Source: a virus
Length of the DNA: 64,000 nt
Strand: one strand, 5' to 3'
Virus record (IMG/VR): IMGVR_UViG_3300025073_000817
Location: 50,592 to 114,591 of that record
Numbering within the stretch: the stretch's first letter is position 1; each line of letters begins with the position of its first letter. Under the pieces are notes generated by a model. It was not told where the DNA came from. It worked only from the letters and a program-made list of their open reading frames with translations, and searched no databases. The position numbers and the translations under genes are program-made. Shown piece after piece: positions 8,151 through 63,576 of the stretch.

Positions 8151-8869
8151 AGATTATGAAAAAGAGTGTTGGCAATGGTGTGATTTCAAGTGCAGTTAAC
8201 TCTTTAGCAACCGAAATGGAGGGTGAAATGATGGAGAAACAGTCTATGGTGGACCAATTGGTGCAAGAAATTGATGAAACTGATTCAAAAACAGCGAAAG
8301 TTGAGTCAAAAACGTCCAAAGTTGGTCCAAAAAAGAGGAAAGTTGGGCCAAAAAAGAGCAATGAAAAATCGAAGGGAGGTGACATCATGAACAAGGATCT
8401 GTCTCCAAGGCAGAAGGCAGAGGCTCTCCTTATGAGAGTATGTAAGGAGATGGGCATTCGTGTCCAGAGGATTCAACCTAAGAGAGACATTCAGCACAAG
8501 CCCGGAGCACTTCAAGCAGTCAGGGCTGATGGCCTCAAGGTAGCAGTAAGAGCTGGTGATGTGTGTATCTACAGCCCTTACAGTGTGATCAAGGTTGGGC
8601 GTCCTGAGGTTGGTGGTTATCCACACGTAACCATACTCAGGCACAGTGAACCTGAAATGGAAGTAGCACTAAGAAGAGCGTTGAAGGACAAAAAGTCCAA
8701 CGCTCAGTGGGCTGCTGAACTGAAGGCAACTCGTAGGACGAAAACACTTGAAACAATTGAACAGAGAAGGGTAAGGCTTGAGGCTGAACTCAAAGCGCTC
8801 AAGGAAACAGAAAAGAGCATGAAGAAAAAAGAAGTCATGCTAAAGAAACTGAAACCACAAACCGTCTAA
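8144..8869 (+). CDS. Lys-rich protein with possible internal start (Lys-rich family member 1)
   Basis: A 241-residue basic protein. The first 80 residues are low-complexity and include a tandem KVGPKKRKVGPKKS. A compact domain follows (about 95-190), with strands around the pattern V-x-ADG-x-x-V-x-x-R-x-GD, then a Lys/Glu-rich coiled tail. Similar domains with Lys-rich tails occur at 11422 and 43580. A very strong GGGAGGTGACATC precedes an in-frame ATG at 8387, so a 160-residue product lacking the N-terminal part may also be made. AAGGAG supports the 8144 start. Plausibly DNA-binding; no known family recognised. Confidence 0.65.
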   Translation: MVEIMKKSVGNGVISSAVNSLATEMEGEMMEKQSMVDQLVQEIDETDSKTAKVESKTSKVGPKKRKVGPKKSNEKSKGGDIMNKDLSPRQKAEALLMRVCKEMGIRVQRIQPKRDIQHKPGALQAVRADGLKVAVRAGDVCIYSPYSVIKVGRPEVGGYPHVTILRHSEPEMEVALRRALKDKKSNAQWAAELKATRRTKTLETIEQRRVRLEAELKALKETEKSMKKKEVMLKKLKPQTV

Positions 8870-8877
8870 AAAGGAGA

Positions 8878-8902
8878 TTGGGGAGGACAACAAACTCCCC
8901 AA
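8878..8902 (+). promoter_or_regulatory. Perfect 8-bp hairpin before an MNxYT gene
   Basis: TTGGGGAG (8878-8885) and CTCCCCAA (8895-8902) are exact inverted repeats with loop GACAACAAA. The left arm buries a GGGGAGG Shine-Dalgarno-like run, and the next ATG (8911) has no other clear ribosome site. There is no T-run, so translational control is more likely than termination. Confidence 0.5.
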
Positions 8903-8910
8903 TACAAACT

Positions 8911-9120
8911 ATGAATGAATATGTTAAGATAAAATTGTTTAGACCAGGAACTAAAGTAACACCGACAAAAAAATTCAGAGGTCTTTATAACAAAATGGAT
9001 CTATCAGATGTATATGTAGTTAAATCATTCTTAAAAGAAGTTGATCATGTAATTTTATGTGGTGGAAAATATGATGAAGAACGATGGCATATAGATCATT
9101 TGGAGGTAGTAAATGAATAA
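8911..9120 (+). CDS. MNxYT-family small protein (KPGTK subtype)
   Basis: A 69-residue member starting MNEYVKIKLFRPGTKVTPT, with V for T in the tag, and ending WHIDHLEVVNE. I chose ATG 8911 over an upstream TTG that lies in the hairpin. Its TPTKKF segment recalls the gene at 19961 (TPTLRF). Confidence 0.72.
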   Translation: MNEYVKIKLFRPGTKVTPTKKFRGLYNKMDLSDVYVVKSFLKEVDHVILCGGKYDEERWHIDHLEVVNE

Positions 9121-9349
9121 TTATATTGCAAGAAAAATATTGAAACCAGGAGTTAAAGTAAGAATCAAAAAAGAAGCCGGAATAATTTATGAAGAAATAA
9201 CATCTAAAGAAGTGTTAACCATAACAGAGGTTTTAGTTTCGGAAGATAATAAGGTATTCATATCATTGATTAAAGGAAATATAAATGACCTTGATGAACT
9301 TAATTACTCATTTAAATTAGAAGAAATTGAGGAGGTGATAAATGGATAA
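9113..9349 (+). CDS. MNxYT-family small protein (KPG subtype)
   Basis: A 78-residue member starting MNNYIARKILKPGVKVRIKK. I replaces T in the tag. An 8-nt overlap with each neighbour and an internal GGAGG suggest coupled translation. Confidence 0.75.
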   Translation: MNNYIARKILKPGVKVRIKKEAGIIYEEITSKEVLTITEVLVSEDNKVFISLIKGNINDLDELNYSFKLEEIEEVING

Positions 9350-19960: not shown

Positions 19961-20176
19961 ATGAATCTATACACACTCAAAAAGAAATTTAGGCCAGGAA
20001 CAAAAGTAACACCAACACTTAGATTTAAAGATGATCCTAATTATGGAAAAATATTCACAGTTAAGAGTATTATTGAATATACTGCAGATTACATTCTAGT
20101 AGATGTATATAGGGGTGAGGGATCAAAAGAATCAGATGGCTGGCATCCAGATAATCTAATGGTGATTGATGAATAA
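19961..20176 (+). CDS. MNxYT-family small protein (RPGTK subtype)
   Basis: A 71-residue member starting MNLYTLKKKFRPGTKVTPTL, with GKIFTVKSI in the middle and the tail GWHPDNLMVIDE, a clean example of the full family pattern. Confidence 0.8.
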   Translation: MNLYTLKKKFRPGTKVTPTLRFKDDPNYGKIFTVKSIIEYTADYILVDVYRGEGSKESDGWHPDNLMVIDE

Positions 20177-57323: not shown

Positions 57324-60002
57324 ATGACAGGAATAGATCTTCTTTTGAGTGGAACATATATTGTTCCTGCTGAAGTAAAACAATTATCTAATGATACGGC
57401 TATTATCTTATCTGATTTAGGTGAAGAATTTTTCTTTTATTCAGCTAACTATGGATTCAGAGAAATTAAAGAAACAAATATTCCTCTAAGCATATTTCGT
57501 TCTATTCCAGAACGAATAGATGATATTATTATAGATTTTAGAGGTGATCCATATTTAGTTTCAAAATATATGATATCTAAAAAGATAAGGATCATTAAAA
57601 AGATAGGATTAGCCGTTTATTCAATTCCATTCTCTCTTATGAGGTTGATTGAAAAAACTAAAATTACTAATTCAAAATCAGACTTTGTCCACCTACATGT
57701 TCATACCGATAGTTCAATTTTGGACGGAGTTACTAGTTGCGAAAAATATGTAGCACAAGCTAAAGAATTTGGAATGGATGCCCTAGCTGTCACTGACCAC
57801 GGTAATATGGCTTCACATATGTCTCTACATCTAGCTTGTAAGAAAGCTGGAATAAAACCAATAATGGGAATTGAAGCATATATAACTGATGATGCAACAA
57901 TTCATGATGGCGATCATAGATCAAGTAACCATATCGTTCTATTAGCTAAGAATAGCATAGGCTATCGTAACATGCTTATTCTCCAAAAATTAGCATGGAG
58001 CACTGAAAATTATTATTACAGGCCTCGTATTGACTACCAAATGTTAGAGCAATATAAAGATGGTCTCATTGTCCTCACAGCTTGCCTCAAAGGTGTGCTT
58101 GCCAGTAAACTTATTAACGGCAAAATTAGGAAGGCAAGGGCAATTGCGCAAGATCTAAAAGACATGTTCAAGGATGATCTATATTTCGAATTGCAATTGC
58201 ATGATATTTATGTAGATGATATAAACATTCAAAAAAGATATAATAGAAGACTTATAGAACTTGCTGATGAAATGAATATCAAAACAGTTATTACAAATGA
58301 TGTTCATTATTTAAAAGAAGGTGGACATGAAATACAGAGTAAAGTAATGAGGATGAGGGAAAAAGATTCTGAATTATCAGAAACATATTGTGATTCTATT
58401 TGGTTTAAATCTTTCAAAGATATATACGAAACGCATAAAGAAAAGAAACATTTCTCGGACGATGTTTTTAAGTCTTCTGTTCTTAATACTTTAGAAGTTG
58501 CTTACAAATGTAATCATGAATTAGAAACTGGTGGATTAAAAATCCCAAAAATAAGTGTGGCTAAATTTCCAGGCAATAAGAAAAAACGACTAGATGAATT
58601 AGAATATCTCAAATGGAGAATAAAGAAGGGCCTAAAGAAAAGAAAGGATCAATTATCGGCACCATTAAAGGAATACAAAAAACGTATAGATTATGAAATA
58701 GATGCTTTCACAAAGATGGGTGTTATATCGTACATATTTATTTATGATGATCTAGTAAGATTTCTTAAAAAGCAAGGATGTCTATGTTCTTTAAGAGGAT
58801 CAGCTAATGGAAGTGTTGTGCTTTGGCTCATTGGTTTGTCAATTGTTGACCCTATCAAATTTAAAATTCTATTTGAACGATTTATTTCACCTGCTCGTAT
58901 AGAGGCTAGAATGGCTGATATCGATATTGACTTAGACATATGCCATACCTACAGAGATATGGCAATAGATTATTTAAAGAAAAGGTATGGTGAAGACAGG
59001 GTATGTCCTGTTGGGAGTTTTGGAAGGACACAATTACGATCAGCCATTAAGAACATGGCTAGAGTTGAAGCAGAAGAACTAAATAAAAAAATTAATGATT
59101 CTAAAACTGCTGAAGAAGCTGCTGAGTATAAAGCTAGATTAGAATCATTTAGTTTTATGGAAATAAACAAAATAACAAAACTCATTGGGGATGAAAATGA
59201 CATAACAAAAATTGGTGAAGTATCAAGATGGTTTGCTAAGAATAAAGATTGGTATTTCAAATATGTTCACCCAATTCTAAATAACAGATATGCCCCTTCC
59301 TTACATCCTGCAGGAATTGTAGTATCTCCCATCCCATACTATGAATGGCTTCCAGTAAGAACAAATAAAGTCAGCAAGGGTAAAAATGATGAAAGAGTAT
59401 TTACAACACAATGGGAAAATTCACATACTTCAGTAGAACATCTTAATGAAGCCGGTGTCATGGTTATGGATATTTTAGGAGTTAAAACCTTATCTGTAAT
59501 AAAAGATACTTTTGGCTTAATTAAAAAAAGATATGGAATTAAACTAAATTTGGAAGACATACCATTAAGCAATAAGAAAGTTTACAAAACTCTATCAAAA
59601 GGAGAAAACATCGGGTTTTTCCAGTTAGGTAGTTCTAAAATAAAAGGAACCTTAAGAAATACTAAGCCAGATAACATTGAAGATTTGATATTTCTAATAG
59701 CTGCTGATAGACCTGGGCCAATTGCGGCTGGAGCATTTGAAAAATATGCTGATCGCAAAAATGGAAGAGAAGAAATAGAAGAACTTCATCCATCAATCAC
59801 CGAAATAACCAAAGATTCAATGGGTGTACTAGTCTATAGTGAACATTTAATGTTGGCGGGACTTGAAGCTGCAGGAATGTCACCAATTGATTCAGAGAAA
59901 CTCAGAAAGATTGTTAAGTCTAAAAATCCAGAAGAGTTCGGAAAATTCAAAGAAAAATTTATAGAAGGGTTTGTAAAAAAATGGACAAAGAAAGTCAAAT
60001 AG
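57324..60002 (+). CDS. dnaE: DNA polymerase III alpha subunit, N-terminal fragment
   Basis: An 892-residue protein. A ~120-residue unrecognised N-terminal extension precedes a PHP domain (HLHVHTDSSILDGV, about 123; VTDHGNM; GIEAYITDD). The polymerase active site follows: RGSANGSVVLWLIGL, ADIDIDLDICHTYRD (about 532-546) and VMDILGVKTL (about 716) with the three catalytic Asp. It ends KFIEGFVKKWTKKVK, just where a normal DnaE continues into the FxxYxFNKxHA region. That region lies about 1.96 kb downstream at 61965. ATG 57324 has AGGA 5 nt upstream; ATG 57303 is also possible. Confidence 0.9.
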   Translation: MTGIDLLLSGTYIVPAEVKQLSNDTAIILSDLGEEFFFYSANYGFREIKETNIPLSIFRSIPERIDDIIIDFRGDPYLVSKYMISKKIRIIKKIGLAVYSIPFSLMRLIEKTKITNSKSDFVHLHVHTDSSILDGVTSCEKYVAQAKEFGMDALAVTDHGNMASHMSLHLACKKAGIKPIMGIEAYITDDATIHDGDHRSSNHIVLLAKNSIGYRNMLILQKLAWSTENYYYRPRIDYQMLEQYKDGLIVLTACLKGVLASKLINGKIRKARAIAQDLKDMFKDDLYFELQLHDIYVDDINIQKRYNRRLIELADEMNIKTVITNDVHYLKEGGHEIQSKVMRMREKDSELSETYCDSIWFKSFKDIYETHKEKKHFSDDVFKSSVLNTLEVAYKCNHELETGGLKIPKISVAKFPGNKKKRLDELEYLKWRIKKGLKKRKDQLSAPLKEYKKRIDYEIDAFTKMGVISYIFIYDDLVRFLKKQGCLCSLRGSANGSVVLWLIGLSIVDPIKFKILFERFISPARIEARMADIDIDLDICHTYRDMAIDYLKKRYGEDRVCPVGSFGRTQLRSAIKNMARVEAEELNKKINDSKTAEEAAEYKARLESFSFMEINKITKLIGDENDITKIGEVSRWFAKNKDWYFKYVHPILNNRYAPSLHPAGIVVSPIPYYEWLPVRTNKVSKGKNDERVFTTQWENSHTSVEHLNEAGVMVMDILGVKTLSVIKDTFGLIKKRYGIKLNLEDIPLSNKKVYKTLSKGENIGFFQLGSSKIKGTLRNTKPDNIEDLIFLIAADRPGPIAAGAFEKYADRKNGREEIEELHPSITEITKDSMGVLVYSEHLMLAGLEAAGMSPIDSEKLRKIVKSKNPEEFGKFKEKFIEGFVKKWTKKVK

Positions 60003-60220
60003 GGAAAGTATTTAAACATAAGAGGCTTGGATTAGTTTCGTTGGTATCTAATATGCCCGATATTAATGTTGCATATGATAGCACATTTATTGTTAGAACC
60101 ACCAATTACAAGGATTATCGTGTATTTAAAACTTCATGCATAGATTCTTCTGAAGAAGAAAGACAATTATATTGGAACAAAATTAAGGAGCACGATAAAT
60201 GGATAAAAAAGAAACAGTAG
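59981..60220 (+). CDS. Small hypothetical protein within the split dnaE
   Basis: A 79-residue basic protein starting MDKESQIGKVFKHKRLGLVS. The IGKVFKHK.LGLVSLVSN opening is KOW-like. It begins inside the last codons of the dnaE N-fragment, as if the fragment's original reading had been cut here. Unknown function. Confidence 0.6.
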   Translation: MDKESQIGKVFKHKRLGLVSLVSNMPDINVAYDSTFIVRTTNYKDYRVFKTSCIDSSEEERQLYWNKIKEHDKWIKKKQ

Positions 60221-60576
60221 GAAGAGTTACATTTGGACCACAAGTTAAAAATCCATTTACACTAGATATTGACACTGGTAAAGAATTAGAATCCCAATCA
60301 TCTAATCCTTTTGGATTAAGTAATAAAGATAATGATGTTGTTATATCAAGGTACAATAGTTGTCCAGCATGTAAAAAACCTTTAATAGTTAAAAATCCTC
60401 CTCCGTATTATAATGAAGTGCAAGAAAATTATGATATTAAAGTTGAATATGATGATACATCAAAAGATGATATTCCTGAAATATATGGATTTTATTTTAC
60501 TTGTGCAAGGTGTAGATATCAATGGTTTGAAAAAAGTAAAAACAAGACTAAAAATAGAAAACTAGAAGGAGAATAA
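60199..60576 (+). CDS. Zinc-ribbon protein
   Basis: A 125-residue protein starting MDKKETVGRVTFGPQVKNPF. CPACKK (about 55-60) and CARCRY (about 105-110) form a ribbon around an acidic beta segment. Basic tail. AAGGAGCACGATAA site within the upstream gene. Confidence 0.65.
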   Translation: MDKKETVGRVTFGPQVKNPFTLDIDTGKELESQSSNPFGLSNKDNDVVISRYNSCPACKKPLIVKNPPPYYNEVQENYDIKVEYDDTSKDDIPEIYGFYFTCARCRYQWFEKSKNKTKNRKLEGE

Positions 60577-60578
60577 TC

Positions 60579-60752
60579 ATGCCACCAGAAGGATACGTTA
60601 AAATTAGAGATAAATTGAAAAAAGAAGGCAAATCTGATGAAGAAGCTAAAGAGACCGCTGCAAAGATTTGGAACAAGAAGCATCCTGAAAATCCGGTAGG
60701 CCGTGGTAAGCATCATGAGGAACCGCAAGAGAAAATATTAATCGATGAATAA
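60579..60752 (+). CDS. Small basic phage protein
   Basis: A 57-residue ORF, MPPEGYVKIRDKLKKEGKSD..., containing AKETAAKIWNKKHPENPVGR. This A..IxNKxHP..PV pattern is one I recall from small phage proteins associated with structural or capsid regions. AAGGAGAATAATC site. Confidence 0.6.
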   Translation: MPPEGYVKIRDKLKKEGKSDEEAKETAAKIWNKKHPENPVGRGKHHEEPQEKILIDE

Positions 60753-61065
60753 ATATAATCTAACTAAATTTGAAAATTATTTAATCAAACATTTTAAAGA
60801 AAATTTACCAACAACATATGATAATTTTGCAATAATGTTCAGACTTGATGCTGTTATGATGCAAGAAAATTTTGGTTATAATGAAATATCACTCGAAGGT
60901 GTAATAGTAATAACATCAGAAAAATGTTCCACAAATCTTGAAGAATTTACCAAATGGAGTAGTTTAAATCTAAATGACTACAAGATAAAAACATTAACAA
61001 TCACCATTACTGATGACTACCGTTATCGTAGAGGAATTTCATTTAAATTAACTCTTTCAACATAA
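60745..61065 (+). CDS. Hypothetical protein with MNxY tag
   Basis: A 106-residue protein starting MNKYNLTKFENYLIKHFKEN. The tag is followed by a beta-rich body (ISLEGVIVITSEKCSTNLEE) unlike the barrel family. Overlaps the upstream stop by 8 nt. Confidence 0.62.
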   Translation: MNKYNLTKFENYLIKHFKENLPTTYDNFAIMFRLDAVMMQENFGYNEISLEGVIVITSEKCSTNLEEFTKWSSLNLNDYKIKTLTITITDDYRYRRGISFKLTLST

Positions 61066-61075
61066 AAGGAGAATC

Positions 61076-61339
61076 ATGAGCAGCGAATCACAAGAGCCGG
61101 CAATAACACCAGAACTGAAAAAACAACTTCAAGAATTTTATGAGGCTGATTTAAAGAAAAAGCAAGAACCTACACCATCAGATCTGCCATTCCGGACTGT
61201 CCAACATAATATTTATCTTATGGATAATATGATTCATATAGATTTTAGTCTAGCAGTTCAAAGGGTGAGATTTAATAAGAAAGAAGCAATGGCAATGTCT
61301 AACAGAATTAGAAAACTCGCAAAGAAAATGAAGTGGTGA
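61076..61339 (+). CDS. Small hypothetical protein
   Basis: An 87-residue protein starting MSSESQEPAITPELKKQLQE; acidic helix, strands (HNIYLMDNMIHIDFSLAVQR), then a basic helix (MSNRIRKLAKKMKW). AAAGGAG 6 nt upstream. Not recognised. Confidence 0.62.
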   Translation: MSSESQEPAITPELKKQLQEFYEADLKKKQEPTPSDLPFRTVQHNIYLMDNMIHIDFSLAVQRVRFNKKEAMAMSNRIRKLAKKMKW

Positions 61340-61343
61340 AAAT

Positions 61344-61556
61344 ATGGGAACAAAATATACATATGAAGAATTGTTTGAACTATTTTATAACGGCGAATCT
61401 TTTGATTATCAAGGTGGAACGGCTCGGGTTATGAATGTTAAAACTTATAGTGGGTATAACAATCGTGGAAAACCAGCCGTTTTTAGTGATTTTGTCATTA
61501 CTGTAACAAAAATTCTTAAGGTTGAATCTAAACAAAGTAAAAAGAAAAAGGCGTAA
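61344..61556 (+). CDS. Small hypothetical protein
   Basis: A 70-residue protein starting MGTKYTYEELFELFYNGESF, with a Lys-rich end (SKQSKKKKA). Strand-rich centre. Not recognised. Confidence 0.6.
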   Translation: MGTKYTYEELFELFYNGESFDYQGGTARVMNVKTYSGYNNRGKPAVFSDFVITVTKILKVESKQSKKKKA

Positions 61557-61558
61557 TC

Positions 61559-61759
61559 ATGCCAACACAATTTACTGAAAAGAAATATCGTTTCTATTTC
61601 GGCAAACATAAAGGGAAACTAGTCCAAGAAGTAGAATCCGGTTATCTTAAATATTTACTAAATCAAGATTGGTTTGAAGATAAATATGAAGAATTATATG
61701 ATGAAGTTGAAAGAGAAGTTGAATGGAGAGATGAAACAGAAGGGCACTTTTATGATTGA
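61559..61759 (+). CDS. Small DUF3820-like protein
   Basis: A 66-residue protein. FYFGKHKGKLVQEVESGYLKYLLNQDWF-type residues (about 12-40) match the pattern (F-G-K-x-K-G-K...YL.WLL) of DUF3820, often found alone or fused to exonucleases. Acidic C-terminus. Confidence 0.6.
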   Translation: MPTQFTEKKYRFYFGKHKGKLVQEVESGYLKYLLNQDWFEDKYEELYDEVEREVEWRDETEGHFYD

Positions 61760-61934
61760 TGAACTAATCCAAGAAATGACAATGACATGTCAAGTGTGTG
61801 GAGGTTCAGGAATAAAATCACGATACGACGAAGATGATGACGCTAAATGTACCGATTGTAATGGGACTGGGGTTATAATTTCTCCTGATGGGGAAAAATT
61901 ACGGCAAATTATCCTTAAAGGAGAAATATTATAA
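61752..61934 (+). CDS. Small DnaJ-type zinc-finger protein
   Basis: A 60-residue protein starting MIDELIQEMTMTCQVCGGSG. CQVCGGSG and CTDCNGTG are the CxxCxGxG repeats of DnaJ-type zinc fingers, enough for one zinc. ATG 61752 overlaps the upstream stop. Confidence 0.65.
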   Translation: MIDELIQEMTMTCQVCGGSGIKSRYDEDDDAKCTDCNGTGVIISPDGEKLRQIILKGEIL

Positions 61935-61964
61935 AACAAACATTAATACCATAATGGATAAATA

Positions 61965-62919
61965 ATGAAAAAGCATTTTAAATCAAAAGATAAAGCAAGG
62001 AGGGCAGCGGAAACAATATGGTCTGAGCTTCATGCGTTCGGACAATATTGTTTCCCGTAATGTAAGGAAAGCTCATGCGACTTCTTATGCATTAGTCGCT
62101 AATGCGACACAATATCTTAAGGTTAAATATCCATTAGAGTTTTTCTGTTCATTATTATCACAAGCAACTGATGACGAGTATGAAGGCATCAAGGCTGTTT
62201 CAGAAAAATACTATGGTATAAAGTACCACATGCCAGATATAAACTTATCTAAGGTCAATTTTTCCATCAATGATGATGAAATAGTTTGGCCTTTCACAAG
62301 TATTAAAGGAATAGGAATTAGTGCAGCTAACGAAATAGTAAAACATCAACCATATGACTCTTTCAAACATATTTATGAAACTGTTAATAAAAGAATTGTG
62401 AACGTCAAAATATTTAGATTGTTGATAACAACTAATTCTCTTAATGAATTTAGTAAGCGAAATAAGTTAATAAAAAGATTCTATAAACTTCATAAAATCA
62501 ATGAAACATTTGAACCACTAAAGAAAAAACAATGGGATTTTGAAGCGAGTAAGGTTATGCCTTATTTTAAACAATCAGTAGAAGAACTATTCCCTGATCA
62601 ACTCAAAGGTGTAATACCGTATGAAAAATTTTCATTGGCTAGAACTGGTCAACGTATAGTAGTTGCTGGAATTGTTTCATCAGTTAGATATATTAATTCT
62701 AAGCGTGGAAAGATGGCTATCTTAAATCTATCCAATATTGGGGATACGTATAATATTGTTTTATGGTCTGATATGATTGCTAAATTAGATAAAAAGGATA
62801 TAACTATTAAAGTAGATATGCCACTTAAAATATCTGGGTTCAAATCAATGTCTAGGATGAATGAACCGCAAATTGCTTTAGGTAATGAACCAGAAGCATA
62901 CATTAAGGTATTGAAGTGA
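61965..62919 (+). CDS. dnaE: DNA polymerase III alpha subunit, C-terminal fragment (internal frameshift)
   Basis: ATG 61965 reads MKKHFKSKDKARRAAETIWS, then HAFGQYCFP and a TAA at 62058-62060. The +1 frame, open from 62032, continues with NVRKAHATSYALVANATQYL. Together these give FGQYCFP-NVR-KAHATSYAL, matching the DnaE consensus FAxYxFNKSHAxxYA apart from a three-residue insertion. The rest has helix-hairpin-helix (SIKGIGISAANEIV) and an OB domain (VVAGIVSSVRYINSKRGKMA). One +1 shift at CCG-TAA would make a 317-residue fragment. The product must then assemble with the N-fragment at 57324 to be active. Confidence 0.72.
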
Positions 62920-63119
62920 ATCTATATACAATAAGAAAGAAATATAAACCAGGAACAATATTAACTCCTATTAAATATACCAATACTCCACAAGATGTTG
63001 GTAAAAAATTCATAGTTAAAGATATATATATTCCTTTTACTGGCCATTTACTCCTTAATTGCATAGATGATGGAAGAGAAATAATTTGGCATTACTCACA
63101 ATTAAGAGTTATAGAATGA
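62916..63119 (+). CDS. MNxYT-family small protein, GTG start
   Basis: A 67-residue member read from GTG (GTGA overlap with the dnaE C-fragment), MNLYTIRKKYKPGTILTPIK, ending HYSQLRVIE. It shows the array resuming about 34 kb after its last copy. Confidence 0.76.
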   Translation: MNLYTIRKKYKPGTILTPIKYTNTPQDVGKKFIVKDIYIPFTGHLLLNCIDDGREIIWHYSQLRVIE

Positions 63120-63349
63120 ACTTATATACAATAAGAAAGAAATATCCTGTTGGAAGTAAATATAAAATGAAAAGAGTAATTTATATGGAGGATAATGAAG
63201 ATGATATCTACACAATTAAGGAATTTGATAGTTATCCTGGCGGAATTGTAATAACCTTTGATGTTAAGTCTAGATTTATTAATTCAAACAGCTATAGTAT
63301 TGAACTTTTTGAAAGAATGCTAAGAGATAAAAGGCTAGTACCAATATGA
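63116..63349 (+). CDS. MNxYT-family small protein
   Basis: A 77-residue member starting MNLYTIRKKYPVGSKYKMKR. The first 14 residues differ little from the genes on each side, indicating local triplication (62916, 63116, 63346). Confidence 0.78.
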   Translation: MNLYTIRKKYPVGSKYKMKRVIYMEDNEDDIYTIKEFDSYPGGIVITFDVKSRFINSNSYSIELFERMLRDKRLVPI

Positions 63350-63576
63350 ATTCATATACATTTAGAAAAAAATATCCAATAGGAAGTAAATATAAAAACC
63401 TGCAACCAATATTTCCTGAAAGTAATACTTTTGAAATATTTAGAATCTTTCTCAATATAAATTTAAATAAACTATTTCTTACTGTAAAATATAACAATGG
63501 CCACATAGATATATTTTCAAAAGGTTTTTTCTTACATGAAATTAATAAAGGTACATTTAAACCAATCAAAGCATAA
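63346..63576 (+). CDS. MNxYT-family small protein
   Basis: A 76-residue member starting MNSYTFRKKYPIGSKYKNLQ, sharing SKYK with its neighbour. Last array member before the promoter at 63603. Confidence 0.78.
   Translation: MNSYTFRKKYPIGSKYKNLQPIFPESNTFEIFRIFLNINLNKLFLTVKYNNGHIDIFSKGFFLHEINKGTFKPIKA

Follow-up and report, generated by a model that had tools for sequence, protein, structure and literature searches.

A phage DnaE polymerase gene in two parts, with a candidate translational recoding element at a second break

Introduction

Gene 60 of bacteriophage T4 is the classic proven case of bypassing by the ribosome in a phage, and whether its plan is general is a standing question that bears on the locus described here. 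In T4, about 1 kb with the HNH gene mobA separates genes 39 and 60, and ribosomes bypass 50 nt within the 5′ portion of gene 60 (PMC3014915). The take-off codon of gene 60 is followed by a stop, and a 5′ stem-loop has been modelled as the motor (PMC5009743, PMC11194080). Hairpins are also associated with T4 genes 25 and 38, which have split ribosome-binding sites (PMC3014915). Among other divided phage genes, nrdA of Aeromonas phage Aeh1 is split by mobE and an Aeromonas phage DNA polymerase is split into 43A and 43B, and the parts assemble into active enzymes (PMC2988022).

Here we analysed a window of 64,000 nucleotides, corresponding to bases 50,592–114,591 of a 114,591-bp IMG/VR virus contig (a virus of bacteria). 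The replicative DNA polymerase of this phage is of the DnaE type; its N-part and C-part are encoded by separate genes (break 1), and the second gene is broken again (break 2). As in T4 39/mobA/60, an insert divides the gene and includes an HNH endonuclease in one phage of the group (L027), a coding gap that alters the frame lies early in the downstream half, and the gene is whole in close relatives. The stop that immediately follows the last codon ahead of the gap, and the 5′ stem-loop in front of it, also resemble gene 60. In contrast to gene 60, the gene concerned is the unrelated DnaE, the gap is 6–11 nt instead of 50 nt, the hairpin stands before the gap and not within it, there is no matched landing codon, the nascent-peptide signal is not conserved, and the product is a predicted one. 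Like Aeh1 nrdA and 43A/43B, the locus encodes an essential phage replication enzyme cut into two coding regions by insertion. However, the enzyme belongs to family C and not, as 43A/43B, to family B, its assembly is predicted, and it has a second break with a recoding-type signature. The succession of Shine-Dalgarno (SD)-like motif, hairpin, and next coding segment is shared with T4 genes 25 and 38, whereas a start codon at the required place is present only in L026 and absent from the window and L027, and the hairpin is built from codons of the preceding segment. The split DnaE of cyanobacteria is likewise a C-family polymerase divided near the same conserved motif, but no intein is present at either break here. 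Relative to the cyanobacterial split-intein site, break 1 lies ca. 28 residues upstream and break 2 three residues downstream. In a full-text literature search, covering mostly papers outside subscription, neither a split DnaE gene nor bypass turned up for phages of this type.

Results

The comparison set consisted of five related IMG/VR phages:
G001/L002: dnaE split at the same break-1 place, gap of ca. 0.2 kb with one small gene
G002/L026: dnaE split at break 1, gap of ca. 0.9 kb
G003/L027: dnaE split at break 1, gap of ca. 1 kb that includes an HNH endonuclease gene
G004/L028: dnaE contiguous, 1197 aa
G005/L034: dnaE contiguous, PHP domain interrupted by an HNH-type intein

All contigs are metagenomic and come without reads. 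The search of related phages for contiguous or split dnaE that had been suggested with the original prediction yielded both forms: two close relatives carry contiguous homologues (L028 and L034), one has break 1 only (L002), and two have both breaks (L026 and L027), with the same break-1 junction in all three split relatives. Viral and genome scans revealed no further members of this clade; the last pattern scan missed the known L026, which probably sits at a stored-chunk border, and is thus not exhaustive. In known phage records, DnaE was found only as distant homologues, with 21–33% identity among the matches listed. Since break 1 is common to four genomes and the residue of break 2 to three, the breaks are beyond chance or assembly accident. 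L026 and L027 were sisters in the tree (100/99); therefore, the three cases of break 2 are not independent origins. The best tree placed the four split genomes on one side of a branch with weak support (66/80), and a single origin of break 2 was not rejected by the AU test (p 0.24).

Judged by its domains and by the predicted fold of L028, the window polymerase is a DnaE (C-family DNA polymerase III alpha). Pfam searches with the window pieces detected PHP, catalytic, and finger domains followed by HHH and OB domains. The structure predicted for L028, one of the contiguous homologues (mean pLDDT 86.6), matched Taq (4iqj/2hpi) and E. coli Pol III alpha. The first two features of the locus are as follows:
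57324–60002, plus strand: DnaE N-part with PHP, polymerase (NTPase/palm), and finger domains (Pfam PF02811, PF07733, and PF17657)
59981–61934, plus strand: break 1, eight small ORFs of the ORF list between the N-part and its continuation

The N-part matches (E 1e-45 to 1e-42) confirmed the PHP domain expected from the sequence, together with the polymerase and finger domains. The N-part ends with KKWTKKVK (FIEGFVKKWTKKVK / KFIEGFVKKWTKKVK), and the N-parts of the window and its relatives are 55–62% identical, with values of 55–57% for the window's N-part against those of relatives. Break 1 is at the same place in four genomes (the window, L002, L026, and L027), and its ends have drifted: the N-part tails extend from 2 to ca. 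18 residues beyond the conserved KKW, and the C-parts have new N-termini that vary among the genomes. The gene content of the gap is different in each split phage. An HNH endonuclease gene (phrog_119, E 2.7e-9), whose start overlaps the end of the N-part, is found at break 1 in L027 only, and the gaps of the window, L002, and L026 carry other genes. No endonuclease was found in the window gap by the scans made, in which three of the eight small ORFs were compared with Pfam and PHROGs and gave no useful match, and the break-1 gaps of the relatives contained no homologues of the window gap ORFs. A small gene at 60579 lies inside the gap in the window but downstream of the C-part in the relatives, indicating that the C-part behaves as an independent gene.

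Break 1 is very probably a functional split. The best reading, in agreement with what had been proposed, is that the N- and C-parts would assemble non-covalently: both parts retain 45–57% identity to those of relatives that share the split site, and each break maps to a predicted inter-helix loop. On the L028 model, break 1 lies in the loop between helices 872–889 and 896–910, and break 2 in the loop ahead of helix 917–936. This reading is supported by the split Aeh1 NrdA and split gp43, whose parts form active enzymes. Break 1 may have originated from an insertion of the homing-endonuclease type, as the HNH gene is still present in one relative, and the original insert may later have been swapped for other small genes. 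The two polypeptides would then join into a working C-family polymerase.

The downstream gene consists of the following parts:
61965–62060, plus strand: piece 2, 31 codons (MKKHFKSKDKARRAAETIWSELHAFGQYCFP) and a TAA stop; natural continuation of the N-part
62058–62067, plus strand: break 2, 10-nt gap (TAATGTAAGG) with the stop codon first and the frame changed; contiguous in L002, L028, and L034
62068–62919, plus strand: piece 3, the C-part from KAHATSYAL, with HHH_6 and OB domains (Pfam PF14579), within ORF 62032–62919

The original prediction described a DnaE gene split once, with an N-part, eight small genes, and a continuation from 61965 that leads to the K-x-H-A motif. The N-part, the small ORFs, and the start of the continuation were found as described, but the continuation does not run on to this motif. 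It halts at the TAA (62058–62060), and KAHATSYAL begins at 62068 in another frame. Two breaks are therefore present, and the stop and frame change at the second had been overlooked. Piece 2 shares 40% identity over 30 aa with the beginning of the L002 C-part (E 2e-8 for the pair), and the C-parts of the relatives are 45–51% identical to piece 3 of the window. The sole in-frame ATG upstream of piece 3 is at 62032, within the hairpin loop described below.

At break 2, frame 0 of the window reads TTC CCG TAA, the stop coming directly after FGQYCFP. L026 has TTC CCG TAAAAAAAATG AAA GCT with an 11-nt gap, and L027 has TTC CCT TAG CTC AAA GCA with a 6-nt gap and the stop in frame. L002, L028, and L034 read through FP-(K/R)-(A/G)-H without interruption. 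Thus, break 2 is at the same residue in three genomes, with gaps of 10, 11, and 6 nt (window, L026, and L027) that give three frame offsets. The gaps have neither length nor sequence in common except the stop, which is immediately 3′ of the last decoded codon in all three (TAA, TAA, and TAG after CCN). The FP and KAHA codons at the borders are fully retained with no amino acid lost, and both sides are strongly conserved. These seamless ends are in contrast to the drifted ends of break 1.

Two further features precede the stop within piece 2:
61997–62003, plus strand: SD-like AAGGAGG, 5 nt before the hairpin, anti-SD energy −11.9
62009–62055, plus strand: hairpin in the coding sequence, 47 nt, 11 basal and 8 apical pairs, supported by a synonymous-recoding test and covariation with L026 and L027

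All three broken genomes have a 47-nt hairpin of 11–12 basal pairs and an apical stem (GGAAACAATAT..ATATTGTTTCC, GGAAAGCGTAT..ATACGCTTTCC, and GGAAGGCATAT..ATATGCCTTCC), which ends exactly 2 nt before the stop and 12, 13, and 8 nt before the Lys codon of KAHA. As the null model, 5,000 synonymous recodings per genome were generated with the gene's own codon usage. The hairpin was spotted first and tested afterward, and the effect is very large: none of the 5,000 recodings was as stable in any broken genome (window z −5.3), the energies being −25.1 against a recoding mean of −9.3 kcal/mol in the window, −25.5 against −8.6 in L026, and −26.1 against −11.5 in L027. The same test detected no unusual stability at this stretch in the three unbroken genes (L002, L028, and L034). 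In the basal stem, 33 of 33 pair cells are standard and four of the 11 pairs have changed on both sides (compensatory), whereas slid controls gave 36–58% pairing and no double changes. The fold is clearly more stable in the mRNA sense than in the antisense in two of the three genomes, owing to G-U pairs. A de novo palindrome scan of the contigs, which covered G004 and G005 in part, found the same three elements again and recognised no other combination of a hairpin, 2 nt, and a gene-breaking stop. By these sequence criteria, the hairpin structure is under selection, and its function is what we infer below. G000 and G002 share one more conserved hairpin in coding sequence, which is not accompanied by a break.

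The SD-like motif is located 5 nt 5′ of the hairpin in each broken genome (AAGGAGG in the window and L026, and AAAGGAG in L027). The fraction of synonymous recodings with an SD at least as strong was 0.017, 0.004, and 0.054 in the broken genes and 0.24–0.67 in the unbroken genes. These values are no more than suggestive.

Discussion

Break 2 is very probably a selected translational element. We read it as a recoding element in a working two-part polymerase, most likely for short ribosome bypass, to which we give a probability of roughly 0.5. Somewhat more tentatively, the event would be a hairpin-driven bypass of 6–11 nt into any frame, without a matched landing codon, in a two-part C-family replicase. 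The ribosome would pause with Pro-tRNA in the P site and the stop in the A site, the hairpin would refold behind it and pull the mRNA, and decoding would resume at the Lys codon of KAHA to give a single C-polypeptide. This product would include the spanning peptide AAETIWSELHAFGQYCFPK, with the gap residues left out. In T4 bypassing, too, a stop follows the take-off codon and a stem-loop on the 5′ side pulls the mRNA, which supports this reading (PMC5009743, PMC11194080), and the gap lengths of 10, 11, and 6 nt after FP fit frame-independent resumption. On the other hand, no CCN precedes KAHA in any of the three broken genomes, and the lack of matched take-off and landing codons of the T4 type disfavours bypass. 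A look-alike of the nascent-peptide KKYK signal, MKKHFK, occurs ca. 25–30 aa upstream in the window, and none was found in L026 and L027.

If bypass takes place, nature would here have arrived independently at a parallel to T4 gene 60, and once more downstream of a gene split of the endonuclease type. That such a split and a gap downstream of it recur in an unrelated gene would favour a repeated origin of such cassettes. The three diverged phages share the hairpin-stop geometry but have gaps of 6, 10, or 11 nt, a natural series in which the hairpin, the stop, and the landing codon could be examined for their separate roles, and the locus offers a split C-family replicase with parts that could be rejoined in vitro.

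We favour bypass over separate initiation of piece 3, which is less probable but a serious rival. In that case, the polymerase would be in three pieces, with piece 2 (31–34 aa) ending at the stop, and piece 3 would be initiated either because hairpin folding places the SD-like AAGGAGG beside its start, in the manner of T4 genes 25 and 38, or after termination by sliding. An SD-like motif precedes the hairpin in all three broken genomes and in none of the unbroken ones, and hairpin-split ribosome-binding sites are known in T4 (PMC3014915). The ATG exactly before KAHA in L026 hints at separate initiation in that phage. However, the window and L027 lack an ATG, GTG, or TTG directly before KAHA; in L027, the nearest in-frame start lies 29 codons downstream and would cost the conserved motif; and the ends at break 2 lack the drift expected of separate termini.

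True inactivation, as a pseudogene or in a defective subpopulation with replication by the host or by the N-part only, appears improbable. The frames are indeed broken by three different inserts in three genomes, but pieces 2 and 3 have kept 36–62% and 45–51% identity despite long divergence, and the hairpin is actively kept within coding sequence. Neither a family A nor a family B DNA polymerase was found in the whole 114.6-kb contig or in the five related contigs, records that may be fragments. The earlier suggestions of a dead polymerase and of a second polymerase gene outside the window thus found no support. It is about as improbable that the gap is removed from RNA or DNA, or that the palindrome has a role in DNA such as resistance to a homing endonuclease, with translation then continuous. 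In L006, a distant phage DnaE, a group I intron interrupts the neighbouring Phe codon, indicating that the FP-KAHA site attracts mobile elements as an insertion hotspot; the cyanobacterial split-intein site is adjacent too. However, no intron was found in the window region or contig, gaps of 6–11 nt are far below intron size, and the stronger mRNA-sense fold in two of the three genomes speaks against a DNA role. An assembly or sequencing artefact at the hairpin is the least credible explanation. Strong hairpins can upset sequencing, and the metagenomic contigs lack reads to check against, but three contigs from different datasets have three inserts at the same codon, each opening with a stop, and the hairpin lies in uninterrupted coding sequence with covariation.

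Several simpler candidates were rejected. Stop-codon reassignment was ruled out because all three stop codons terminate long ORFs in these contigs, and a suppressor tRNA is unsupported, with no tRNA gene in the window contig or the five relatives. No catalogued group I intron matched at the breaks. A split intein was rejected at either break: neither fragment matched an intein family, as had been anticipated, and the fragment ends are ordinary extein sequence. One fixed programmed frameshift was ruled out because offsets of +1, −1, and 0 would be needed. At U UUC CCG, which has the form of a canonical −1 slippery heptamer, a −1 shift would work in L026 but meets a stop in the window.

Position of the 57-aa gene next to the split DnaE

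A 57-aa gene lies inside the gap of small ORFs separating the DnaE N-part from its continuation (window 59981-61934).

window 60579-60752: 57-aa gene, inside the gap

In all five related phage genomes, this gene is found 3′ of the polymerase gene, but in the window it is within the gap. Because its position differs between the window and the five relatives, local reshuffling has occurred, either of the DnaE C-part or of the 57-aa gene itself. Directly after the C-part are small tandem paralogues with the N-terminus MNLYTIRKKY (window 62916-63576); a further copy is located ca. 43 kb from this set (window 19961-20176).

A coding hairpin; intron, inserts and intein in DnaE genes

A 45-nt coding hairpin spanning GWDNF..GEVIPF was conserved in genomes G000 and G002, and the reading frame there was unbroken.

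L045 9682-9724: coding hairpin
L052 12159-12201 (minus strand): coding hairpin

The DnaE gene of a distant phage (L006) contains a group I intron (8533-8962) that cuts through the codon for Phe in YA(F)NKSH, at a site adjoining the second break of the window gene (62058-62067). The DnaE frames of L035 (8001-12603) and L036 (7989-12628) are broken at approximately residue 742 by a 1.7–1.8-kb insert, where the frame changes; an Rfam intron search gave no match. DnaE of the related phage sequence L034 (7893-12476) is contiguous, and its PHP domain carries an HNH-type intein.

L034: HNH-type intein, C1 at nt 8280; extein restarts with Ser at 9234
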